In this document: positions 21,892-33,570 of the stretch, one piece after another | How positions within the stretch are numbered: the first letter of the stretch is position 1 | Layout: every line of letters starts with the position of its first letter | Assembly: GCF_036227325.1 (NCBI RefSeq) | Contig: NZ_CP109467.1 | Coordinates: 7,130,001 to 7,194,000, forward strand | DNA: 64,000 nt | Reading direction: 5' to 3' | Origin: Streptomyces sp. NBC_01465 | GTDB lineage: Bacteria > Actinomycetota > Actinomycetes > Streptomycetales > Streptomycetaceae | Made by a program: the position numbers and the translations under genes | The notes under the pieces: model-generated | What the model saw: only the letters and a program-made list of their open reading frames with translations | What the model was told of the DNA's origin: nothing | Database searches by the model: none

Positions 21892-23103
21892 ATGGCCACC
21901 ACGCCGTACATCAACCGGAAGAACATGACGCGCCGCCGCATGCTGGGAGCAGCGCTGGCCGCCGTGCCGCTTGCCGCCGTCGCCGGCCCCGCGTGGGCGG
22001 ACCCGGCCGCGGCCGCCCGCACCGCGAGGCGGCTCACACTGCCCGCACCCACCGGGCCGCACCCGGTGGGCACGGCCCCACTGCACCTCGTCGACCGGTC
22101 GCGTCCGGACGGCATCGCGGGCCCCGGGCACTTCCGCGAGCTGATGGCCACCGTCTGGTACCCCGCCCGGAACGTCGAGCGGTACCCGGTGGCGCCCTGG
22201 ATGCCGGCCGGCGCACTTCAGGCGTTCCTCGACGACACGGGGTTCGGCGCTCTGGCCCCGTTGGGGCCGCTCACCGCCGGCCATGTGGGCGCTCCGGTGC
22301 GGCGGTCGGGCCGAAGGCTGCCCGTCGTCGTGTTCTCGCACGGCGCGCACAGCCACCAGGGCGACCACACCGTCATGGTCCAGGAGCTCGCCAGCCACGG
22401 GTTCGCGGTGGTGACGGTGGCTCACCAGTACGACACCTACACCGAGTTCCCCGACGGCCGGGTCGCGGTCCCGCTGCAGGACAGCCAGGCGCCGACCCTG
22501 CCCGGGGACTTCGCCGCCGACCTGCGCTTCGTCCTCGACTGCGTCGAGCAGCTCGCCGCCGGGTGCAATCCGGACGCCGGCCGGAGGGAACTGCCGGCCG
22601 GGCTGCTCGGCGCCCTCGACCCGCGGAACGTGGGCGTGTTCGGCTGGTCGAAGGGCGGGACGGCCACCGCCTGCGCCATGCTCGCGGACGAGCGCATCCG
22701 GGCCGGGCTGAGCCTCGACGGCCCGATGCAGATGAACCCGCCGCTCGCCGGCGACCTGCACCGGCCGTTCATGATGATGTCCGCCGAGTTCACCCGGGCC
22801 ACGGATCCCGAGGCCGCCGTTTTCTGGTCGCACCTGCGGGGATGGCGGCTGAACATCCAGGCCCAGGGCGCTGTCCACATCTCGTACGGCGACAACGAGG
22901 CACTCTTCCCCCAGGTGGCGAAGGTGCTCGGATGGAGCGCACAGCAGCTCCAGGAAACGATCGGCACGCTCGATCCCGGCCAGGCGGTGAGGATCCAGCA
23001 GGCATACCCGCTCGCGTTCTTCGACGAGCACCTGCGCCGCGGTCGGGGACACCTGCTCGACGGGCCGTCCCCGGCCTTCCCGGCGGTGACGTTCCTCCCC
23101 TGA
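21892..23103 (+). CDS. Tat-exported alpha/beta-hydrolase (PAF acetylhydrolase-like esterase)
   Basis: 403 aa from ATG 21892, with CAGGAGG upstream. Residues 1-36 are a twin-arginine signal (MTRRRMLGAALAA, cleavage near AWA). The hydrolase core shows an oxyanion/HGxH-like strand (VVVFSHGAHSHQGDH), the nucleophile elbow GWSKGG, an Asp in LSLDGPM and a late His in GAVHISYGD. It resembles platelet-activating factor acetylhydrolase and the dienelactone-hydrolase-like secreted lipases of actinomycetes. The substrate is probably an ester or lipid outside the cell. It is followed 23 bp later by the convergent TetR gene. Confidence 0.85.
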   Translation: MATTPYINRKNMTRRRMLGAALAAVPLAAVAGPAWADPAAAARTARRLTLPAPTGPHPVGTAPLHLVDRSRPDGIAGPGHFRELMATVWYPARNVERYPVAPWMPAGALQAFLDDTGFGALAPLGPLTAGHVGAPVRRSGRRLPVVVFSHGAHSHQGDHTVMVQELASHGFAVVTVAHQYDTYTEFPDGRVAVPLQDSQAPTLPGDFAADLRFVLDCVEQLAAGCNPDAGRRELPAGLLGALDPRNVGVFGWSKGGTATACAMLADERIRAGLSLDGPMQMNPPLAGDLHRPFMMMSAEFTRATDPEAAVFWSHLRGWRLNIQAQGAVHISYGDNEALFPQVAKVLGWSAQQLQETIGTLDPGQAVRIQQAYPLAFFDEHLRRGRGHLLDGPSPAFPAVTFLP

Positions 23104-23126: not shown

Positions 23127-23717
23127 CTATGGGCCGGGCGGCGCAGTGAGCATCCGCCAGACGCGGCGGACCTGTTCCGCCATGTCGATGTCGGGGTCGC
23201 TCAGCCACTGGAGTTGGATGCCGTCGGTCGCCGCGACGAGGGCCGAGGCCGTGAAGTGCGGGTCGAGCCCGGGGCTCGCCCGGCCGGCCCGCTGCTCGGC
23301 CGTGAGGTGCTCGGCGATCGTGGCGCGCAGCAGGGCGAAGCGTTCCCTGAAGTACGTGTGGGCCGGGTGTGCGCGGTCGGTCGAGGCCGCGGCGAGAGTG
23401 ACGTAGAGGCGTACGCGGGCGGAGTTGGCAGCGTTCGCGGTCAGGGCCCTGGCCAGGAACTCGCCCGGATCGCGCACGACGTCCGGGTCGCGGAAGCGCG
23501 CCTCGGCCGCACGGTCGTTGGCGCGCAGGACCTCGGTGAGCAGGTGGTCCTTGGACTCGAAGTAGTGCATCAGCCCGGTCAGGCTGATGTGACTCTCCTT
23601 CGCGACCATCCGCAGTGTGGTGTTCCGCTCGCCCACGCGGCCGAAGATCTCAAGGGTGACCTTGAGGATCTCCTCCCGTTTGGCGACCCCCTTGGGGTAG
23701 GAGTTTCTGGCTGTCAC
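23127..23717 (-). CDS. TetR/AcrR family transcriptional regulator
   Basis: 196 aa from GTG 23717. The N-terminal helix-turn-helix includes KREEILKVTLEIFGRVGERNTTLRMVAKESHISLTGLMHYF; the C-terminal ligand domain ends LSDPDIDMAEQVRRVWRML, close to the BetI/TetR_C_6 type. It is divergent from an MFS transporter and a GH3 beta-glucosidase, with a perfect palindrome between them. It is probably a repressor of glycoside uptake relieved by a sugar or aglycone ligand. Confidence 0.9.
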   Translation of the reverse strand: MTARNSYPKGVAKREEILKVTLEIFGRVGERNTTLRMVAKESHISLTGLMHYFESKDHLLTEVLRANDRAAEARFRDPDVVRDPGEFLARALTANAANSARVRLYVTLAAASTDRAHPAHTYFRERFALLRATIAEHLTAEQRAGRASPGLDPHFTASALVAATDGIQLQWLSDPDIDMAEQVRRVWRMLTAPPGP

Positions 23718-23768
23718 GCGCCCACCCTATTCGGCCGCCATCGCGCCTGCGCAAAGCCTTGTCAGCAA

Positions 23769-23789
23769 AAACAGTACGCCGTACTGTTT
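23769..23789. promoter_or_regulatory. 21-bp perfect palindrome, likely TetR operator
   Basis: AAACAGTACG, one base, CGTACTGTTT. It lies 52 bp upstream of the TetR start and 40 bp before the MFS start, so binding would block both promoters. The arms are exact. Confidence 0.8.
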
Positions 23790-23828
23790 CGGCCAGTCGC
23801 AGGTGCGGCCCACCGAGAGAAGGTCCCG

Positions 23829-25118
23829 ATGGCGAGACCCCCCGGGGAGCTCCGTGTTCCCTCCCCGCTCCCTGCCGATCCGGCGGGAGCGGCCGCGCCG
23901 GTCGACGGCCGGGCGCTGCGCCGCCTCATGGCGTGCATCGGCCCCGCCAACCTCGGCGTCGCTCTCGTATGGGGAGCTGTCCCCGGCACCCTGCTCGCCC
24001 TCCAGGTCCAGCGCGCGGTCGGCGAGGACGCGAAGGTCGGCACGCTCGCGGTCGTGACCACGGTGGGCGCGCTCGTCGCGATGGTCGCCCAGCCCGTCGC
24101 GGGAGCCGTGTCGGACCGCACCCGCAGCCGTTTCGGCAGGCGCGGGCCCTGGATCGTGGTCGGCGTGGTGACGGGTGGCCTGGCCCTGATCGGCATGGCG
24201 TTCGCGCACTCCGTACCGGTGATGCTGGCCCTCTGGTGCCTGGTGCAGATCGGCTACAACTTCGCGGTGGGCCCGCTCTCGGCCGTCATGCCCGACCGGG
24301 TGCCACCGGAGAGACGCGGCCTGTTCTCCACTGTCACCGGCCTCGGCTCCATGTGCGGCTCGCTGCTCGGCCAGGTGTTCGCCGCCGTCTTCGAGGACCG
24401 GATCACCACGGCATACGTGGTGCTCGCCGCGCTCGCGACGTCCCTGGCGGTCGTCTTCGTGACTCTCAACCCGGACCGGCCGAGCCGGGACGCTCCCCAA
24501 GAGCCCTTCGAGGTACGTGAGTTCCTGCGTGGGCTGTTGCCGAACCCACGCAAGCACCCCGACTTCTTCTGGGTGTTCGTCAGCAGGCTGTGCACCAACC
24601 TGTCGTACTTCCTGGTCTTCGGCTACAAGCTCTACATCCTCCAGGACTACATCGGTCTGCACGACGAGGCGATCGACCGCGTACCCGTACTCGCGCTGAC
24701 CGCCGTCGCCGGCCTTCTCCCGGCCGCCGTCGTGACCGGACCCCTCTCGGACCGGCTCGGCCGGCGCAAGGTGTTCGTGGTGGCCTCGGCCTCTCTCCTC
24801 GGCTGTGCCATGTTCATACCGTTCGCCCTCCCCACCATGACAGGGATGACCGCGATGGCCTTCCTGGTGGGCATCGGCTTCGGCTGCTTCCAGGGCGTGG
24901 ACACCGCCCTCATCTCTCAAGTGCTGCCCTCCGGGCGGTCCTTCGCCCGCGACCTCGGCGTCGTGAACGTCGCAGCCACCCTGCCGCAGGTCCTCGCGCC
25001 CGCCATCGCCGGAGCCGTCGTCCTCTGGCTCGGCGGATACCGGACGCTCTTCCCTCTCGCCATGGCCTGCGCGCTGCTCGGTGCGGTGGCGGTGCTGCGC
25101 GTCAAGGGAGTCCGATGA
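23829..25118 (+). CDS. MFS transporter, probable glycoside importer
   Basis: 429 aa from ATG 23829, with GAAGG six bases upstream. Twelve transmembrane helices are visible. The MFS signature loop is GAVSDRTRSRFGRRGPW after helix 2, repeated as GPLSDRLGRRKVF after helix 8. This pattern (SDR.RSRFGRRGPW) is typical of the glycoside-pentoside-hexuronide/SLC45-like sugar carriers. It is the first gene after the TetR operator, with GH3 directly downstream, so it likely imports the beta-glucoside that GH3 cleaves. Confidence 0.88.
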   Translation: MARPPGELRVPSPLPADPAGAAAPVDGRALRRLMACIGPANLGVALVWGAVPGTLLALQVQRAVGEDAKVGTLAVVTTVGALVAMVAQPVAGAVSDRTRSRFGRRGPWIVVGVVTGGLALIGMAFAHSVPVMLALWCLVQIGYNFAVGPLSAVMPDRVPPERRGLFSTVTGLGSMCGSLLGQVFAAVFEDRITTAYVVLAALATSLAVVFVTLNPDRPSRDAPQEPFEVREFLRGLLPNPRKHPDFFWVFVSRLCTNLSYFLVFGYKLYILQDYIGLHDEAIDRVPVLALTAVAGLLPAAVVTGPLSDRLGRRKVFVVASASLLGCAMFIPFALPTMTGMTAMAFLVGIGFGCFQGVDTALISQVLPSGRSFARDLGVVNVAATLPQVLAPAIAGAVVLWLGGYRTLFPLAMACALLGAVAVLRVKGVR

Positions 25119-25177
25119 CCACGGCGGACCACATCCGCCTTCGCACCGCGCATTGCCCCGCACTCCAAGGAGAAGAC

Positions 25178-27484
25178 ATGAACAACCCGAATCGGCCGGC
25201 AGAGACGCCCGGCGAGACGGTGGCCCGCCTGACCCTCGCCGAGAAGGCCGGCCTGACCACCGGCGCGGGCTGGTGGCACACCACCGCGTACCCGGACGCC
25301 GGGATCCCGGAAGTCCGGCTCTCGGACGGCCCCCACGGGCTGCGCCTGCAGAACGACACCCGGGCCGACCACCTGGGCATCAACGGCAGCGCCCCGGCCA
25401 CCTGCTTCCCGCCGGCCGTCACCCTGGCCTGCACCTGGGACAGCGACCTGGCGCGGCGGGTCGGCGACGCACTGGCCCGCGAGAGCCTCGCGCACGGCGT
25501 GCACGTGCTGCTCGGCCCCGGCGTCAACATCAAGCGCAGCCCGCTGTGCGGACGCAACTTCGAGTACTTCTCCGAAGACCCGCTGCTCAGCGGGGTGTTG
25601 GGAACAGCCTGGGTCAAGGGCCTGCAAGCTCAGGGGGTCGGGGCCTCGGTCAAGCACTTCGCCGCGAACAACCAGGAGACCGGCCGGATGTCGGTCAGCG
25701 CGGACATCGACGTACGCACGCTGCGCGAGATCTATCTCCCCGCCTTCCACCGCGTGGTGACAGAGGCCGAGCCCTGGACGGTCATGTGTGCCTACAACCG
25801 GGTCAACGGCGTGCACGCGTCGCAGAATCCCTGGCTTCTGACGGACGTCCTGCGCGGCGAGTGGGGATACGACGGCGTGGTCGTCTCCGACTGGGGCGCC
25901 GTGGTCGACAGGGCGCGGGCCCTCGCCGCCGGGCTCGATCTGGAGATGCCGTCCTCGTCCGGCGCCGGCCCCGCCAGGGCCGTCGCGGCCGTGGAATCAG
26001 GCGAACTTCCCGAGGAAGCGCTGGACCGAAGCGCCGCACGGGTCGTGGCACTCGCCCGCAAGGCGGCCGAGCACGCGCGCCCCGGTGCCGCCTTCGATGC
26101 GGCCGCCCACCACGAGCTCGCCCGCGAGGTCGCCACGCGCGGCGCGGTACTGCTCAAGAACGACGGCGCGCTCCTCCCGCTGGATCCCGCCGCAGCCCAA
26201 CGCATCGCGGTCATCGGCGAGTTCGCGCGCACTCCCCGCTACCAGGGCGAGGGCAGCTCGCGCGTGAACCCGACCCGGCTCGAAGACGCACTGACCTCGA
26301 TCGTCGAGGCCGCGCCCGCGGCGCACGTCACCTTCGCTCCCGGCTTCCCCGTCGACGCTCCGGACGCCGATGCGGCTGCGCTGCAGGAGGAGGCCCTCCG
26401 CGCGGCCGAGAGCGCGGACGTGGTCGTGCTGTTCCTCGGTCTGCCGCCGAGCTTCGAGTCCGAGGGGTACGACCGCGAACACATCGAACTCCCCGAGGAG
26501 CAGACCCGGTTGCTCGCCGCCGTTGTCGCGGTGAACGCGAACGCCGTCGTGGTCCTCTCCAACGGGGGCGTGGTCCGGCCGGCCGGCTGGATCGACGGCG
26601 TGCCGGCCGTCCTGGAAGGCTGGCTGTCCGGCCAGGCCGGTGGCTCGGCCACTGCCGACCTCCTGTTCGGCAGGGCGAACCCGTCGGGGCGCCTCGCGGA
26701 GACGATCCCGCTGCGGCTCGCCGACACCCCGGCGTACCTGGCCTGGCCGGGCGAGAACGGTCATGTCACGTACAGCGAGGGCCTGTTCGTCGGCTATCGC
26801 CACTACGACGCCCGTGACATGGCGGTCTCCTTCCCCTTCGGGCACGGCCTGTCGTACACCACCTTCGCCTACGCGGACCTGCGGGTGGTCCCGGACGCAG
26901 GCGGGCTCGACGTCACCGTGGCGGTCACCAACACCGGGGAGCGGTCCGGTCACGAGGTCGTCCAGGTGTACGTGGCCGCGCCGGGCGCGCGGGCCCGGCG
27001 CCCCGTACGGGAGTTGAAGGGGTTCGCCACCGTGTGCCTCGCACCCGGCGAGACCCAGGACGTCACCGTCCGCATCGCCCGCGCCGACCTCGCCTATTTC
27101 GACACCGCAGCCGGTACCTGGCTCGTCGAGGACGCCGACCACCGTATCGATGTCGGGGCCTCCAGCCGCGACATCCGGCTGACCACGACGGTCCCGGTCG
27201 ACGGCGACGCCTACGCCGACCAGCCGGACGCCGACTCGACCGTCGAGGTATGGCTCGCCCACCCCGTGGGCGGCCCGGCCATCACGGCACTGCTCGGCCG
27301 GGTCCAGAAGTCCATGGGCGACGCCTACCCCCAGGAGGGAAGCTCCCGTCAGCGGATGGTGGCCAACATGCGCCTCAGCCAGCTCGCCGGGCTCCCGATC
27401 GTTCCCCTGAGCTTCGACGACGTACAGGAACTGGTCGAGACGGTGCGGTCGGCCGCGGGCACCGGGAGGGAGGCGACATCCTGA
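25178..27484 (+). CDS. Cytoplasmic GH3 beta-glucosidase
   Basis: 768 aa from ATG 25178, with AAGGAG five bases upstream. An in-frame ATG at 25115 overlaps the MFS stop but has no site. The TIM-barrel domain contains the KHFAANNQE motif and nucleophile Asp238 in VVVSDWGA. The alpha/beta sandwich domain follows (VLLKNDGALLPL, YQGEGSSRVNP), then an FnIII-like domain (about 590-670, FGHGLSYTTF). The last 70 residues form a helical tail like that of the neighbouring sulfatase (see findings). There is no signal peptide, so it acts on imported substrate. It should release glucose or another sugar from the non-reducing end of beta-glycosides. Confidence 0.92.
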   Translation: MNNPNRPAETPGETVARLTLAEKAGLTTGAGWWHTTAYPDAGIPEVRLSDGPHGLRLQNDTRADHLGINGSAPATCFPPAVTLACTWDSDLARRVGDALARESLAHGVHVLLGPGVNIKRSPLCGRNFEYFSEDPLLSGVLGTAWVKGLQAQGVGASVKHFAANNQETGRMSVSADIDVRTLREIYLPAFHRVVTEAEPWTVMCAYNRVNGVHASQNPWLLTDVLRGEWGYDGVVVSDWGAVVDRARALAAGLDLEMPSSSGAGPARAVAAVESGELPEEALDRSAARVVALARKAAEHARPGAAFDAAAHHELAREVATRGAVLLKNDGALLPLDPAAAQRIAVIGEFARTPRYQGEGSSRVNPTRLEDALTSIVEAAPAAHVTFAPGFPVDAPDADAAALQEEALRAAESADVVVLFLGLPPSFESEGYDREHIELPEEQTRLLAAVVAVNANAVVVLSNGGVVRPAGWIDGVPAVLEGWLSGQAGGSATADLLFGRANPSGRLAETIPLRLADTPAYLAWPGENGHVTYSEGLFVGYRHYDARDMAVSFPFGHGLSYTTFAYADLRVVPDAGGLDVTVAVTNTGERSGHEVVQVYVAAPGARARRPVRELKGFATVCLAPGETQDVTVRIARADLAYFDTAAGTWLVEDADHRIDVGASSRDIRLTTTVPVDGDAYADQPDADSTVEVWLAHPVGGPAITALLGRVQKSMGDAYPQEGSSRQRMVANMRLSQLAGLPIVPLSFDDVQELVETVRSAAGTGREATS

Positions 27485-27499
27485 CCCCGGCGTCACCCC

Positions 27500-28414
27500 T
27501 CACGCGGCGACCGTCCGGAACCCGCAGTTCCCGCTGCTGGATGCCGGCGTGTTGGCCGAGCGGGCGGCCACGCGGTAGCGGTGGCAGTAGGAGTGGTGGC
27601 ACAGGTAGGAGCCGCCCCGCATGACACGGCGCTCGCCCGTCTCGGGTCCCTTGGGGTCGGCGGCGGGGGAGTGGGCGTAGTAGTCGGGGGCGAACCAGTC
27701 CGCGCACCACTCCCAGACGTTCCCGGCGACCTCGTACAGGCCGAGGCCGTTGGGCGGGTACGAGCGCACCGGTGCGGTGGCCAGCCAGCCGTCCGCACCA
27801 GTGTTGGCATACGGGAAAGGGCCTTGCCAGATGTTGCACAACCACCGTCCGTCGGGGGTCAGTTCGTCTCCCCATGCGAAGCGGCGGCCGGCGAGACCGC
27901 CGCGGGCCGCGTACTCCCACTCCGCCTCGGTCGGCAGGCGGCGGCCCGCCCACGCGCAGTACGCCAGGGCGTCGGCCCATGCCACGTGCACCACCGGGTG
28001 GTCCGGCTCCGCGGTGGACAGCGGGCCGTGGGGGTGGCGCCAGTCGGCTCCCCGTACGTCCAGCCACCAGGGGGCGGCCGGGTCTGCCCCGAGGACGTCC
28101 GCCCGCCCGGCGGCGGCCGCCAGGTGGAACACGGCGGAGCTGCCTTCCCGTTCGGCGACGGTCACGTACGCGGAGTCGGCGACGAACGCCTCGAACGCCG
28201 CCACGGTCACCGTGGTGACGTCGATGGCGAACGGGGCGACGCGTACCGCGTGCACGGGCTGTTCGCCGTCCGCCGGATAGCCCTCCCCGAAGGCGTCCCC
28301 CATCTGGAACTCGCCCCCGGGGAGGGTGACTTGGTCGTGCGCGGGCGGTATGCGGGCCGGCGTGGGCAGCGGTCCGGTGGAGCAGATCCGGGTTTCCGGT
28401 ACGCAACATCCCAT
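27500..28414 (-). CDS. Formylglycine-generating enzyme (sulfatase-activating)
   Basis: 304 aa from ATG 28414, with GGAG six bases upstream. The FGE-sulfatase fold is clear (GGEFQMGDAFGEGYPADGE near the start, RRLPTEAEWEYAARGG, NVWEWCADW). The copper-binding active-site pair lies in GSYLCHHSYCHRYRVAAR as Cys272 and Cys277, the same numbers as in the characterised Streptomyces coelicolor enzyme. It therefore should oxidise the Cys of CxPxR sulfatases to formylglycine using O2. The sulfatase lies on the other side of the PadR gene; the shared divergent region suggests co-regulation. No signal peptide. Confidence 0.93.
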   Translation of the reverse strand: MGCCVPETRICSTGPLPTPARIPPAHDQVTLPGGEFQMGDAFGEGYPADGEQPVHAVRVAPFAIDVTTVTVAAFEAFVADSAYVTVAEREGSSAVFHLAAAAGRADVLGADPAAPWWLDVRGADWRHPHGPLSTAEPDHPVVHVAWADALAYCAWAGRRLPTEAEWEYAARGGLAGRRFAWGDELTPDGRWLCNIWQGPFPYANTGADGWLATAPVRSYPPNGLGLYEVAGNVWEWCADWFAPDYYAHSPAADPKGPETGERRVMRGGSYLCHHSYCHRYRVAARSANTPASSSGNCGFRTVAA

Positions 28415-28445
28415 TGACGTCTCCATGACGTGAGTATATGAATTC

Positions 28446-28457
28446 TCACCTAGGTGA
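28446..28457. promoter_or_regulatory. 12-bp perfect palindrome between FGE and PadR
   Basis: TCACCTAGGTGA is fully self-complementary and lies in an AT-rich patch (GTATATGAATTC precedes it). It is 32 bp from the FGE start and 57 bp from the PadR start, a plausible operator for the PadR protein. Confidence 0.55.
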
Positions 28458-28513
28458 AACTGCACATAGTAAAAGCGTCGCACACAGCTTCCGTACTGAG
28501 GGAGTCCACGTTC

Positions 28514-29083
28514 GTGAAGTTCGAGTACGTCCTGCTCGGCCTGCTGGCCCGTCGCCCTTACAGCGGGTACGACCTGCGCAAGTGGCTCGAGATCGAAGGG
28601 CAGTTCCTGTGGGCGCGGGCGCACCACAGCCAGATCTACCGCAAGCTCGGGCAGATGGAGGCCGACGGCTGGGTGCGGCACGAGGTCGACGCGCGCGAAG
28701 GCCGCCCGGACGCCAAGGTGTACCGGCTCACGGCACGCGGGCGCGAGGTCCTCCTGGACTGGGTGCGCTCGCCCTACGAGCCGCCCAGCCGCTTCCAGGA
28801 GATCGACTTCCTCGCGCGGTTCAGCGTCGCGGCGCCGCTCGACAAGGACGCCGCGATCCGGATCGTCGGGACAGAACTCGACCACCGCCGCGCGCAGATC
28901 GCCAAGAACCGGGACCGCGACCGCACCCTGCGCTACGAGGATCCGGCACCCGGCCTCGACCAGGACCTCGACCGGCAGGTCCACGACGCTCTCCACACGC
29001 TCGGCGCGGCCGCCATGGACCGCTGGGTCGCCTGGCTGGAGCACACACTGCGCAGCCTGACAGAAGGGAATCCCGTCCAATGA
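28514..29083 (+). CDS. PadR family transcriptional regulator
   Basis: 189 aa from GTG 28514. A GTG at 28454 would begin inside the palindrome and is rejected. The winged helix covers FEYVLLGLLARRPYSGYDL to the beta wing (DGWVRHEVDAREGRPDAKVY). The C-terminal part is the PadR_C/Vir-like coiled helices for dimerisation. The stop overlaps the sulfatase start (ATGA), so regulator and sulfatase are coupled. It is probably a repressor of the FGE/sulfatase/glycosidase genes, relieved by a phenolic or sugar ligand as in other PadR proteins. Confidence 0.9.
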   Translation: MKFEYVLLGLLARRPYSGYDLRKWLEIEGQFLWARAHHSQIYRKLGQMEADGWVRHEVDAREGRPDAKVYRLTARGREVLLDWVRSPYEPPSRFQEIDFLARFSVAAPLDKDAAIRIVGTELDHRRAQIAKNRDRDRTLRYEDPAPGLDQDLDRQVHDALHTLGAAAMDRWVAWLEHTLRSLTEGNPVQ

Positions 29084-30843
29084 GGGCGATCATGGTGATG
29101 TTCGACAGCCTCAACCGGCACATGCTGCCGCCGTACGGAGGCGACTGGACCCACGCTCCGAACTTCGCGCGGCTCGCCGAGAAGGCCGTCACCTTCGACA
29201 ACGCCTACGCCGGCTCGATGCCCTGCATGCCGGCCCGCCGCGAACTCCACACCGGGCGGCACAACTTCCTGCACCGCAGCTGGGGCCCGCTGGAGCCCTT
29301 CGACGACTCGATGCCCGAACTCCTCAAGCAGAACGGCGTCTACACCCATCTCGTCAGCGACCACCCGCACTACTGGGAGGACGGCGGCGCCACCTACCAC
29401 GGCCGCTACAACACCTGGGAGTTCTTCCGCGGCCAGGAGGGCGACCCGTGGAAGGGCCAGGTCGCCGACCCCGAGATACCCGAGGACCTGAAGCGGATGC
29501 GCTTCGGCGCCTACCGCCAGGACTGGGTCAACCGCCCCCACATGGCGACCGAGGACCGGCACCCCCAGACCCTCACCTTCGACGCGGGCCTCGACTTCGT
29601 CCGTACGAACAAGGACGCCGACCGGTGGTTCGTGCAGATCGAGACCTTCGACCCGCACGAGCCGTTCTTCAGCCACCAGCCCTACAAGGACCTCTACCCC
29701 CACGACTACGAAGGACCGCACTTCGACTGGCCCGACTACAAGCGCGTCGTCGAGACCGACGGTCAGGTGGAGCACGCCCGCTTCGAGTACGGGGCGCTCC
29801 TGTCGATGTGCGACCACTCGCTCGGCCGCGTCCTGGACACCATGGACGAACTCGACCTGTGGGACGACACCCTCCTGATCGTCAACACCGACCACGGGCT
29901 GCTGCTCGGCGAGAAGGGCTGGTGGGGGAAGAGCGTCCAGCCCTGGTTCAACGAACTGGTCCACCTGCCGCTGTTCGCCTGGGACCCGCGCAACCGCGTC
30001 GCGGGCGAACGGCGTTCGGCGCTCGTGCAGACCGTGGACGTGGCGCCGACCCTCCTCGAGTTCTTCGGCGTCGACCGCCCCGGCGACATGCAGGGCGCAC
30101 CGCTCCCGGTCGCCGAGGACACCCCGGTGCGCGAGGCAGGCCTGTTCGGCATCCACGGCGGACACGTCAACGTCACGGACGGCCGCTACGTCTACATGCG
30201 GGCGCCCGCCTCACCCGACAACGCGCCGCTGTACGAACACACCCTGATGCCCACCCACATGCGGGGCCGCTTCTCGCCCGCCGAACTCGCGGACCTGGAG
30301 CTGGCCGAGCCCTTCGACTTCACCAAGAACGTCCGCACCCTGCGTGTGCCGGGCCGCACCCTCCTCAACCCGTACCACCACGGCACGCTCCTCTTCGACC
30401 TGGAGACCGACCCCGAGCAGCGCACCCCGCTGATCGACGACGACGCCGAACTGCGCATGACCACCCTCCTGGTGGAGTTGATGCGCGCGGGCGACGCCCC
30501 GCCCAGCCAGTACGAACGCCTCGGCCTGCCCGCCCACGGCCCGGTCACGGAGAAGCACCTCCTGGTACGGGCCCAGCACGAGCAGGCCGAACGGGCCGCC
30601 CAGCCGCTGCCCCGCGCCGATGACTTCCCCGAGGGCCGCCTTTCGCTGCGTACGCCCCTCGCGGCGCTGATCTCCGACCCGGTCGCCGTCGAAGTGCTGC
30701 GCAGGCACCTGCCCGGCGTTGCCGACTCGGAGCTCCTGCAGATGATCGGGGCGACTCCGCTCATCGATGTCGCCGCGATGGCGGGCGCACTGTTCCCGCC
30801 GTCGAACCTCCGCCTGGTGGCCGAGGAGCTCGCCCAGCTCTGA
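29080..30843 (+). CDS. Cytoplasmic type I (Cys) sulfatase with C-terminal helical extension
   Basis: 587 aa. The formylglycine motif is MPCMPARR: Cys49, Pro51, Arg53 (CxPxR). Metal and sulfate residues of the alkaline-phosphatase fold are present: Asp9 in MFDSLNR, D271-H272 in VNTDHG, and Lys in GEKGWWGK. It hydrolyses sulfate esters; no signal peptide is present, so it works inside the cell, where the adjacent FGE can activate it. The last 65-70 residues (TPLAALISDPVAVEVLRRHLPG onward) are an extra helical module. Translation is coupled to PadR (ATGA). The substrate is unknown; gene context suggests a sulfated glycoside. Confidence 0.92.
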   Translation: MRAIMVMFDSLNRHMLPPYGGDWTHAPNFARLAEKAVTFDNAYAGSMPCMPARRELHTGRHNFLHRSWGPLEPFDDSMPELLKQNGVYTHLVSDHPHYWEDGGATYHGRYNTWEFFRGQEGDPWKGQVADPEIPEDLKRMRFGAYRQDWVNRPHMATEDRHPQTLTFDAGLDFVRTNKDADRWFVQIETFDPHEPFFSHQPYKDLYPHDYEGPHFDWPDYKRVVETDGQVEHARFEYGALLSMCDHSLGRVLDTMDELDLWDDTLLIVNTDHGLLLGEKGWWGKSVQPWFNELVHLPLFAWDPRNRVAGERRSALVQTVDVAPTLLEFFGVDRPGDMQGAPLPVAEDTPVREAGLFGIHGGHVNVTDGRYVYMRAPASPDNAPLYEHTLMPTHMRGRFSPAELADLELAEPFDFTKNVRTLRVPGRTLLNPYHHGTLLFDLETDPEQRTPLIDDDAELRMTTLLVELMRAGDAPPSQYERLGLPAHGPVTEKHLLVRAQHEQAERAAQPLPRADDFPEGRLSLRTPLAALISDPVAVEVLRRHLPGVADSELLQMIGATPLIDVAAMAGALFPPSNLRLVAEELAQL

Positions 30844-30862
30844 GGCCCTTGCGGCCATGTGA

Positions 30863-30894
30863 GCCGGTGACGGGGTTGCCGCCCCGTCACCGGC
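30863..30894 (+). terminator. Strong hairpin after the sulfatase gene
   Basis: GCCGGTGACGGGG and CCCCGTCACCGGC form a perfect 13-bp stem with a six-base loop, 20 bp past the sulfatase stop. It is a likely terminator or attenuator separating PadR-sulfatase from MFS-GH1. Confidence 0.8.
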
Positions 30895-30956
30895 GATTGC
30901 CCTCTCCCTCCCGCAGATCTCCCGTCAAGAAGAACGCAGAGAAAAGAGAAGGCGCG

Positions 30957-32300
30957 ATGCCTGAGCTTAGCCAGCGCCCCGTCACGCCCAAAGCCGAGGT
31001 CCAGGTCGAGGGGCGCTGGCGACAGCTGTCCCTGCTCGGCGGCACGATGCTGGTCGACAGCACCGAGACGAGCCTGGTCAACAGCCTCTTCCCGCTGATC
31101 CGGCAGTCCCTCGGCGTCTCACTGGGCGCCCTCGGAATACTGACCGCCGCAGCCAAGATCGTGGGCGCCTTCACCGGCCCCTTCTGGGTGTGGGCGGCGC
31201 AGCGCTGGTCGCGCAAGAGCGTCCTCGTCGTGGCCACCGGACTCTGGGGCGTCTGGGGCGTGGCCGCGGGCTTCTCGCAGAACTTCACCCAACTCCTCGT
31301 CCTCTACACCGTGTTGGCAGCCGGCTACGCGGCCGCGAACCCCATCATCACCGAGCTGATCGGGGACCTCTTCGGCGGATCGTCCCGAGGCCGCGCGGTC
31401 GGTGTGGTCTACGGCGCGGTCTCCCTGGTCACCGCAGTGATCGGCCCGCTCAAGGGCCAGCTGGCCGGGGTCGACGACGGCTGGCGCTGGGGCCTGTGGG
31501 GCGTCGGCGTCTTCAACATCCTGCTGGGCCTCGCCCTCTGGGCGGGATTCCGCGATCCGGGGCGCGGCGCGGCCGAGGAGCAGCTCGCCGACCTCGACCG
31601 CGCCACCCGCGACGCCCAGGCGAAACTCACCTGGACCAAGGCGCTCTCGCTGCTCAAGATCCGCAGCCTGGTGATCCTGCTCGTCTCACGCCTCCTGTCC
31701 GGACACCTCCTGGTGGGCACCTTCGGCGTGGTCTTCCTCGTCGACGTCTACGGCTTCAGCACCCAGAAGGCGTCGATCGTGCTGCTGCCCTTCGGCGTCG
31801 GCTACTTCCTCGGCACACTCCTGGGCGGCGTCGCCGTCGACCGGGCCACCCGGCGCAGTCCGCGCCACGGCCCGGTCGCGGTCCTCCAGGCGGCCCAGTT
31901 CGCCTTCGCGCTCTTCGCCTACTTCGGCACCCAGTTCGGCTACGACAGCATCGCCCTGTTCTGCGTCTTCTTCGCCCTCATGGGCGCGACCCAGGGCATC
32001 AACCCGAGCGTCAACCGCCCCATGGTCATGGCCATCACCCCACCCGAACTGCGCGGCGCCGCGTTCGCCCTCTACGTCTCCATCGTCGAAGCGATCGCCT
32101 GGGCCGCCTACAGCCTGGCCGCCGGCTTCCTCGGCGACGCCGTCGGACTGCGCACGGTCTTCCTGTGGGCGCTCGTCGTCCTGATGCTGATCAACGGCGC
32201 CTACCTGACGCTCCTTCACCGCTCGTACGCCGATGACGTGACCCGCGTACAGAGGGAACTGCACGCGCGCCGCGAACAAGCCCTCGACCCCACCGCCTGA
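30957..32300 (+). CDS. MFS transporter (second of the glycoside locus)
   Basis: 447 aa from ATG 30957, with AAGG five bases upstream. About 12 helices; TMD1 starts LSLLGGTMLVDSTETSLVNSL, and the loop after helix 2 holds AAQRWSRKSVLVVAT in place of the usual DR-GRR motif. The central loop is charged (ADLDRATRDAQAKLTWTK), and the C-terminal tail is about 30 residues, basic and soluble. It is unlike the first MFS gene and closer to SLC/spinster- and hexuronate-like carriers. It sits between the sulfatase and GH1, so it probably imports the sulfated substrate or exports the aglycone. Confidence 0.85.
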   Translation: MPELSQRPVTPKAEVQVEGRWRQLSLLGGTMLVDSTETSLVNSLFPLIRQSLGVSLGALGILTAAAKIVGAFTGPFWVWAAQRWSRKSVLVVATGLWGVWGVAAGFSQNFTQLLVLYTVLAAGYAAANPIITELIGDLFGGSSRGRAVGVVYGAVSLVTAVIGPLKGQLAGVDDGWRWGLWGVGVFNILLGLALWAGFRDPGRGAAEEQLADLDRATRDAQAKLTWTKALSLLKIRSLVILLVSRLLSGHLLVGTFGVVFLVDVYGFSTQKASIVLLPFGVGYFLGTLLGGVAVDRATRRSPRHGPVAVLQAAQFAFALFAYFGTQFGYDSIALFCVFFALMGATQGINPSVNRPMVMAITPPELRGAAFALYVSIVEAIAWAAYSLAAGFLGDAVGLRTVFLWALVVLMLINGAYLTLLHRSYADDVTRVQRELHARREQALDPTA

Positions 32301-32367
32301 CGTTTCGGGTCCGCCGACCCGCCGCGACTGTCCCCGCACCCGGCCACACAGAAGAGAGAACCAGCTC

Positions 32368-33570
32368 ATGACGCATGAACGACGACTGCCCGACGGCTTC
32401 CTGTGGGGCGCGTCCACCGCCGCCCACCAGATCGAGGGCGGCAACACCAACAGCGACTGGTGGGAGTTCGAGCACAGCGCAATCCCCTACGTCAAAGAAC
32501 CCAGTGGCGACGCCTGCGACAGCTACCACCGCTGGCGCGAGGACATGGACCTGCTGGCCGAACTCGGCTTCACCGACTACCGGTTCAGCATCGAATGGGC
32601 CCGCATCGAACCGGCCCCGGGTGAGTTCTCCCACGCCGCCATCGCCCACTACCGGCGCATGGTCGAAGGCGCGCGCGAACGGGGCCTGCGGCCCATGGTC
32701 ACGCTGCACCACTTCACCGCACCCCGCTGGTTCGCCCAGCGCGGCGGCTGGGCCGCCGCCGGATCGGACGAACTCTTCGCCCGCTACCTCACGGCGGCCG
32801 CCCCCATCTACGCCACGGACGTGGCGCACGCGTGCACGATCAACGAGCCCAACATCCTCGCCGTCATGGCTGCCGCGCAGGCCGCCCTCGCCTCCGGCCA
32901 GGCCGTGAACTTCGCCGAGAACCCGCCGGCCCCGGACGGGGCCACCACCGACGCGCTGATACGGGCGCACGCCCGCGCCGTCGAAACGGTCAAATCCCTC
33001 GCACCGCAGGTGAGTACCGGCTGGTCCGTCGCCAACCTGGTGTGCCAGCCCCTGTCCGGAGCCGAGGACGTCGCCGCGGCATTCCGGCACCCGCGCGTGG
33101 ACGTCTTCCTCGAAGCCGCCCGCGGCGACGACTGGCTCGGTGTGCAGGCATACACGCGCACGCTCATCGGCCCGAACGGCCGGCTGCCCGTGCCCGAGGG
33201 CGCGGAACGCACCCTCATGGGATGGGAGTACTACCCGCAGGCGCTCGGCCACGCCCTGCGGCACAGCGCCTCCGTCAGCGGCGGCACCCCGCTCATCGTC
33301 ACCGAGAACGGCATCGCCACCACCGACGACGCCCGCCGCATCGACTACACCACCGGCGCCCTCGACTCCCTGTCCGCCGCCATGCGCGACGGCATCGACG
33401 TCCGCGGCTACTTCCACTGGAGTGCCCTGGACAACTACGAATGGGGCCGCTACGAACCGACCTTCGGCCTGATCGCCGTCGACCGAGAGACCTTCGTCCG
33501 GACCCCCAAGCCCTCGGCCGCCTGGCTCGGCGCCATCGGCAGCACCCGCGTGTTGCCGAGCGAGGCGTGA
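32368..33570 (+). CDS. Cytoplasmic GH1 beta-glucosidase
   Basis: 400 aa from ATG 32368, with AAGAGAGAA upstream. The GH1 N-terminal signature LPDGFLWGASTAAHQIEGG is present, the acid/base Glu160 is in CTINEPN, and the nucleophile Glu313 is in IVTENGIA. Both catalytic Glu are intact; plant myrosinases lose the first. The aglycone-side sequence WSALDNYEWGRYEP is standard. It is shorter than typical (440-480 aa), mainly in the loops between residues 165 and 290. No signal peptide. It is the last enzyme of the locus; a pentapeptide-repeat gene overlaps its stop. Confidence 0.92.
   Translation: MTHERRLPDGFLWGASTAAHQIEGGNTNSDWWEFEHSAIPYVKEPSGDACDSYHRWREDMDLLAELGFTDYRFSIEWARIEPAPGEFSHAAIAHYRRMVEGARERGLRPMVTLHHFTAPRWFAQRGGWAAAGSDELFARYLTAAAPIYATDVAHACTINEPNILAVMAAAQAALASGQAVNFAENPPAPDGATTDALIRAHARAVETVKSLAPQVSTGWSVANLVCQPLSGAEDVAAAFRHPRVDVFLEAARGDDWLGVQAYTRTLIGPNGRLPVPEGAERTLMGWEYYPQALGHALRHSASVSGGTPLIVTENGIATTDDARRIDYTTGALDSLSAAMRDGIDVRGYFHWSALDNYEWGRYEPTFGLIAVDRETFVRTPKPSAAWLGAIGSTRVLPSEA

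Follow-up and report, generated by a model that had tools for sequence, protein, structure and literature searches.

Glycosulfatase gene clusters, in which a sulfatase is encoded together with its maturing enzyme, a transport system and a regulator, are known from the ats loci of Bifidobacterium breve (excerpts of PMC9239261). Here we analyse a 64,000-nucleotide stretch of the genome of Streptomyces sp. NBC_01465, also an actinobacterium (contig NZ_CP109467.1, positions 7,130,001 to 7,194,000 of the forward strand; called the window below), in which the genes at 23127-33570 show the same grouping of sulfatase, maturase, transporter and regulator. The locus is thus of a kind already known, and is a variant of it: the ats clusters, in the excerpted part of that report, use anaerobic sulfatase maturases (anSME), whereas the window locus, which we liken to them by gene content, has a formylglycine-generating enzyme (FGE), PadR- and TetR-type regulators and glycosidases of families GH1 and GH3. 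An open-access literature search found no paper on this locus among the titles and abstract starts that it listed. We consider a cytoplasmic pathway for the utilization of a small sulfated beta-glycoside to be the best reading of the locus, and a probable one.

Organization of the locus

Positions 23127-33570 are filled by eight uninterrupted, contiguous open reading frames (ORFs), and every product matches a Pfam family above its curated cut-off, which confirms the contiguous TetR/MFS/GH3 and FGE/PadR/sulfatase/MFS/GH1 blocks described in an earlier reading made from the letters alone (the sequence-only reading). The order is TetR, MFS1-GH3, FGE and PadR-sulfatase-MFS2-GH1, arranged as two pairs of divergent transcription units; FGE faces GH3 convergently, with 15 bases between them, and is divergent from PadR-sulfatase-MFS2-GH1, in which the PadR and sulfatase genes overlap by 4 bases. 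The features, with lengths in amino acids (aa), are as follows.

23127..23717, minus strand: TetR-family regulator, 196 aa, putative local regulator of MFS1-GH3 (PF00440, 36 bits)
23769..23789, no strand: predicted TetR operator AAACAGTACG-C-CGTACTGTTT (from genome uniqueness and conservation)
23829..25118, plus strand: MFS1 transporter, 429 aa, weak likeness to GPH/sugar transporters (PF07690, 141 bits; PF13347, 84 bits)
25178..27484, plus strand: GH3 glycosidase, 768 aa (PF00933/PF01915)
27500..28426, minus strand: FGE, 308 aa, Cys276/Cys281 (PF03781, 279 bits)
28447..28469, no strand: predicted PadR operator CACCTAGGTG-AAACT-GCACATAG in the divergent FGE/PadR gap (from conservation and genome uniqueness)
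28514..29083, plus strand: PadR-family regulator, 189 aa (PF03551, 47 bits)
29080..30843, plus strand: S1 (formylglycine-type) sulfatase, 587 aa, C49MPAR, without export signal (PF00884, 119 bits)
30556..30840, plus strand: C-terminal helical domain of the sulfatase, with a weakly evidenced likeness to the GH3 C-terminal domain (profile-profile comparison)
30957..32300, plus strand: MFS2 transporter, 447 aa, proposed importer (PF07690, 142 bits)
32368..33570, plus strand: GH1 glycosidase, 400 aa, relative of SGR_2426 (PF00232, 234 bits)

The sulfatase is an S1 enzyme without an export signal

Family S1 formylglycine-dependent sulfatases are recognized by a PF00884 domain and a C-x-P-x-R motif (PMC5066984, in the portion drawn on here). 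The window enzyme has both, since its PF00884 match lies far above the cut-off of 25 bits and its motif is C49-M-P-A-R53, at the Cys49 named in the sequence-only reading; the catalytic Cys is conserved in all 70 recovered sulfatase sequences (69 loci and the window). The N-termini of the GH3, FGE, sulfatase and GH1 proteins are neither hydrophobic nor Tat-like, with peak 15-residue hydropathies of 0.18-0.63, whereas two other sulfatases encoded in this genome, whose N-termini are leader-like, reach 1.87 and 1.96. This simple measure, which is not a signal-peptide predictor, bears out the proposal that no hydrolase of the locus has a signal peptide, and on it we rejected the idea that these are secreted enzymes. 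In addition, the first strand of the sulfatase fold starts right at the N-terminus. The glycan sulfatases studied so far are mostly exported enzymes with marine or host polysaccharides as substrates.

Solved S1 sulfatases (S1_7, S1_25, S1_46, S1_11 and choline sulfatase) and also phosphonate monoester hydrolases (PMH) share the fold and the formylglycine-type motif of the window sulfatase, but among the 50 structure alignments listed they are only 15-24% identical to it and none is close; the named relatives nearest in sequence are from Streptomyces. Identity as a choline sulfatase was rejected, as the score of 113.4 bits to TIGR03417 falls well short of the equivalog cut-off of 433.45.

Gene neighbourhood of the sulfatase relatives

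Conservation was assessed in the best 80 of 147 confirmed sulfatase relatives (loci carry our L numbers), with partner matches counted within 10 kb at set thresholds. PadR is matched in 52 of these loci, MFS2 in 48, FGE in 45, GH3 in 28, TetR in 20, MFS1 in 13 and GH1 in 8, and at these thresholds no locus of the 80 has all seven partners together. Among the 21 loci whose sulfatase is at least 78% identical the corresponding counts are PadR 21, MFS2 20, FGE 17, GH3 7, TetR 6, GH1 4 and MFS1 3. Besides the window, only L094 and L095 showed all eight genes, with the TetR-MFS1-GH3 block inverted in L094. The stable core is therefore PadR/sulfatase/MFS2, usually with FGE, and the glycosidases are interchangeable modules; with respect to gene order, the sequence-only reading holds for PadR, sulfatase, MFS2 and FGE, which are kept together among close relatives, and fails for the glycosidases, which are not. 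Nor is the gene order Streptomyces-wide, a possibility that we rejected because, of 392 genomes from the genus, 38 have the sulfatase (E <= 1e-100) and only 3 a GH3 of at least 75% identity, which adjoins the sulfatase in all three.

GH1 or GH3 is matched in 31/80 loci vs about 6% expected from density in the locus's own genome (a rough figure), and at E <= 1e-200 the GH3 is found in 7 of the 38 genus genomes with the sulfatase vs 15 of the 354 that lack it (Fisher p 0.003, or 0.009 when the window's genome is excluded). In 13/80 loci there is a GH3 match of at least 48% identity, which is partial in L052 and L082; these loci belong to Streptomyces, Nocardia, Microbacterium, Agromyces, Neobacillus and Metabacillus.

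Other neighbouring ORFs were called with a simple script, and Pfam or NCBIfam scans covered a small selection of them. The Bacillaceae locus L079 holds a LacI regulator, the sulfatase, a GPH symporter (405 bits, cut-off 231.35), another sulfatase and an FGE; L078, L082 and L089 contain ORFs that cluster with this LacI and this symporter, with an FGE in L078 and L089, a GH3 in L089 and a GH3 frame in several pieces in L082 (Neobacillus rhizosphaerae, L082:13600-17619). In L036, from the Streptomyces sulphureus group, the sulfatase is immediately preceded by a ROK regulator, sugar ABC transporter parts, a GH38 and a GH2, and the same ORF clusters recur in L037, L039, L040 and L041. Finally, L096 has a LacI-type regulator, two GH3 genes, an FGE and an oligopeptide-type ABC importer. 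Thus the neighbours change and the logic stays: in both Actinomycetota and Bacillota the sulfatase repeatedly has unrelated importers and glycosidases next to it, and from these importers and the sugar-type regulators we read the loci as serving uptake and breakdown of a glycoside.

The same neighbours bear on another use of a formylglycine enzyme, namely as a phosphodiesterase or phosphonate hydrolase that would, for example, remove phosphoglycerol groups from osmoregulated or cyclic glucans (beta-1,2-gluco-oligosaccharides) ahead of degradation by GH1 and GH3. We think this quite unlikely: beta-1,2-glucans do not account for the GH38, GH2 and GH78 neighbours, a further sulfatase-family match in 28/80 loci fits a multiply sulfated substrate better, and the window enzyme reaches 114 of 900 bits against the PehA equivalog.

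Two side observations concern single groups of loci. Extra sulfatase-family matches accompany a GH3 in L045, L048, L038, L080, L030 and L032, suggesting a multiply sulfated substrate there. In Actinomadura (L051:2835-7984) a GH1 and the sulfatase lie near acyl-CoA ligase and dehydrogenase genes, with similar ORFs, judged by eye, in L055; this is perhaps a hint of aglycone breakdown at these two loci.

Maturation of the sulfatase

The window FGE matches the solved FGEs 6muj and 2q17, which we take to be the enzyme of Streptomyces coelicolor, over nearly its full length (about 446 bits) with the LCHxSYC motif aligned, and so has both the PF03781 domain and the catalytic Cys pair that it shares with them. 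The pair is Cys276/Cys281 from the start at 28426, and becomes the Cys272/Cys277 of the sequence-only reading if M5 is the start. We rejected an EgtB-like identity because the EgtB and SenA equivalog cut-offs are missed, the Cys pair is present and a solved FGE is matched. What distinguishes the window FGE from the solved enzyme is its setting, beside one sulfatase in a genome with two further FGEs: that genome encodes three FGEs with the Cys pair, the local one included, and one EgtB-like protein. An FGE is also encoded no more than 7 kb from a second sulfatase at another place in this genome, G000:C1:8144658-8151001 (L009, L001).

The local FGE match (at least 45% identity) in 45/80 loci compares with an expectation, from genome density, of a true FGE in about 0.7% of such stretches, so the linkage of FGE to the sulfatase is above chance, with the reservation that the 80 loci are not independent and 11 of them have less than 9 kb on one side. 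On the sulfatase tree (70 rows; 11 of the 80 loci are left out, having no sulfatase ORF under the start pattern used) at least 13 gains or losses of this linkage are needed vs a mean of 23.3 in shuffles; hence local linkage is clustered but labile. A case in point is L012 (strain NBC_01016), which the tree places nearest to the window: the FGE is missing between GH3 and the PadR operator (L012:9200-9480), the sulfatase and other genes are kept, and the end of GH3 runs, as judged by eye, into the apparent FGE start region; a further FGE, also with the Cys pair, is encoded on a separate contig of that genome. Loss is the simpler reading, because the next relative, L049, carries an FGE. Given the two further FGEs of the window's genome and a sulfatase kept without a local FGE in NBC_01016, the claim that the sulfatase has an activating enzyme of its own is not supported in that form.

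Two loci have exchanged the kind of maturase. Anaerobic sulfatase maturases are encoded about 2.9 kb from the sulfatase in Neobacillus (L082:5893-7140, 420.6 bits) and about 4.9 kb from it in Actinotalea (L076:16665-17993, 413.8 bits; cut-off for both 349.45). They are the only such ORFs found by BLAST across the 80 loci, and neither locus has an FGE; the Actinotalea genome has no PF03781 match, and that of Neobacillus has one, which lacks the Cys pair.

Two putative local regulators

The window holds the sole occurrence of the TetR palindrome AAACAGTACG-C-CGTACTGTTT in the single-contig genome of 9.14 Mb when up to 3 mismatches are allowed; among the 80 loci it is found once each in L012, L013, L016 and L049 and nowhere else. 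TetR adjoins GH3 in those four loci and in L094 and L095. Likewise, the PadR site CACCTAGGTG-N5-GCACATAG has a single genomic location at up to 1 mismatch (a second, reverse-strand match overlaps it). Of the 28 PadR genes that are at least 50% identical (window counted), 22 have the full PadR pattern upstream, compared with 1 of 27 that are more distant; the count of 22 is partly circular, since the pattern was derived from the upstream regions in which it was then counted. In 200 shuffles of the 55 upstream regions the pattern appeared at most once. Because each operator is unique in the genome, the locus is predicted, from this conservation and uniqueness, to have two separate local switches, that is, two single-site regulons. 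These, together with the presence of GH1 in 8/80 and GH3 in 28/80 loci, run against the description of the region as one complete locus.

Directly upstream of TetR, and apparently outside the locus, is a PAF-acetylhydrolase-like esterase gene with a Tat-like leader, TRRRM (window 21892-23103).

The glycosidases and a possible shared C-terminal domain

The GH3 is 52.8% identical (346/655 aligned residues) to PSTG1, whose structures 8j9f/9lql are its best solved relatives by sequence. From its name PSTG1 is probably the Paenibacillus enzyme PSTG, or a close copy, which prefers sophorose over cellobiose and gentiobiose; PSTG was discovered as a sesaminol triglucoside hydrolase, and the excerpted report mentions no sulfatase (PMC3622683). 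The GH1 has the PF00232 domain and the NEP and TENG motifs, which we presume to be the catalytic ones. Its closest solved relative by sequence is SGR_2426 of Streptomyces griseus (8kap, 584 bits), which among beta-linked gluco-oligosaccharides is specific for beta-1,2 ones. In the excerpted report SGR_2426 likewise has no N-terminal signal, and its Trp291 is shared by the window GH1; unlike the window GH1, it is placed with ABC transporter genes and a GH193 gene (PMC12369401). The closest solved relatives of both glucosidases thus prefer sophorose, hinting at a beta-1,2 glucoside. The glucosinolates and flavonoid sulfates named as candidates in the sequence-only reading were guesses; relatives in sequence, and those of the glucosidases only, point rather to beta-1,2-glucosides (sophorosides).

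The tails of the sulfatase (30556-30840) and the GH3 (27110-27484) apparently share a small helical domain that has no Pfam name. This likeness comes from a profile-profile score of 38.2, the only comparison that matched; the window's GH3 tail alone does not match the sulfatase tail profile (score 13.3). The tail model was built on an alignment of 41 of 55 sequences, and the sulfatase model on one of 50 of the 70 sequences. In a control with 61 alignment pieces the top piece from outside GH3 scored 20.5, and the first (21.9) and third (18.8) were the GH3 cluster's own tail columns. A Pfam search to E 10 with five sulfatase and two GH3 tails gave no convincing match, its lone signal being one GH3 tail with two matches (E 0.02 and 0.04) below the cut-off, and Foldseek with the tail pieces gave no match under E 1. 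One may speculate, as a rather doubtful extension, that a widespread cytoplasmic S1 sulfatase family (Actinomycetota, Bacillota, Chloroflexota) opens sulfated beta-1,2-linked glucosides, such as sophorosides or beta-1,2-gluco-oligosaccharides, for intracellular GH3 and GH1, and that the shared domain could hold sulfatase and GH3 together or in a common oligomer.

Evidence on substrate and direction of transport

Several observations weigh against a cytoplasmic sulfated-glycoside pathway. The solved relatives of the sulfatase mix glycan sulfatases, choline sulfatases and PMH with close scores, so the substrate class rests on the neighbour genes; fold comparison likewise does not separate the sulfatase from choline sulfatase and PMH. 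The GH3 falls below the cut-off for NF041610, an exo-alpha-(1->6)-L-arabinopyranosidase (873.9 vs 1300 bits), and the GH1 below that of the beta-glucosidase equivalog TIGR03356 (267.5 vs 478.5 bits). In addition, the subsite +1 residue Gln229, tied to the sophorose preference of SGR_2426, is Leu in the window GH1, which keeps only the Trp of the sophorose-type pair (Trp291 and Gln229). This position is Leu in the window, L012, L095, L049 and L016, Gln in L094 and Pro in L023 (both sulfatase-linked); Gln is also found in L101, in the second GH1 that the window's genome encodes (L102) and in each of the seven TetR-GH3-GH1 cassettes (below). Because it varies in this way, the window-type GH1 may have drifted to another partner group.

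The transporters also leave room for the reverse direction. MFS1 reaches 56.3 bits against the GPH sugar symporter model TIGR00792, under its cut-off of 231.35, and both MFS1 and MFS2 score weakly to efflux models, so that import is only the proposed direction. These weak scores, and the placing of two MFS genes under TetR- and PadR-type regulators, would suit detoxification or signalling, in which a bioactive compound is desulfated and deglycosylated and the compound or its aglycone exported; the transporters of the relatives are importer types, a GPH symporter in L079 and binding-protein-dependent ABC systems in L036 and L096, and we regard this explanation as very improbable.

Linkage itself is incomplete: 49/80 loci lack a GH1 or GH3 match within 10 kb, the seven Chloroflexota loci have no match to the window's glycosidases (L064 has a GH78 about 5 kb off), and of the seven genus genomes with both sulfatase and GH3 (E <= 1e-200), the distance between the two is at most 10 kb in four and about 25 kb in one, and the remaining two have them on separate contigs. 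Seven further loci (L097-L100, L103-L105) carry TetR-GH3-GH1 cassettes with no sulfatase match in the fetched stretch, and two cassette genomes (G056, G161) have the sulfatase on another contig. The existence of such cassettes suggests that the window locus arose by joining of a beta-glucoside cassette to the sulfatase core. In L097 and L100, ORFs that by eye resemble dipeptide-type ABC transporter parts lie near the cassette.

Both the loci that lack glycosidases and the cassettes that lack a sulfatase would also be expected if the enzyme scavenged sulfur from non-carbohydrate esters (aryl or choline sulfate) and the glycosidases were chance neighbours or unrelated modules; moreover, PadR regulators are often tied to phenolics. 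This explanation is unlikely in our judgement, given the choline-sulfatase score reported above and the recurrence beside the sulfatase of sugar importers and of glycosidases of differing families.

A proposed cytoplasmic pathway for sulfated glycosides

The intracellular sulfated-glycoside proposal of the sequence-only reading thus survives in its cytoplasmic sulfatase, local activating enzyme and recurring sugar-catabolic context, and not in its single unit or dedicated FGE. In the pathway that we favour, MFS2, and perhaps MFS1 too, would import the intact sulfated compound. By homology, the FGE would act in the cytoplasm to oxidize the sulfatase residue Cys49 to formylglycine, and the S1 sulfatase would then strip sulfate, probably from the sugar part, unblocking the glycoside. 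Glucose would next be freed by GH1 and GH3, whose relatives lean to beta-1,2 linkages. PadR, for which the sequence-only reading conjectured an aglycone as ligand, would act on the predicted divergent operator and control FGE and PadR-sulfatase-MFS2-GH1, and TetR, on the second predicted operator, would control MFS1-GH3.

With a single operator, a single sulfatase and few enzymes, the locus lends itself readily to substrate testing, and the two exchanges of FGE for anSME make the dependence on formylglycine testable. A conserved family of sulfatases that lack export signals, combined with a coupled maturase, regulators acting at single sites and exchangeable glycosidases, would be a sign of a pool of soluble sulfated glycosides as yet undescribed.

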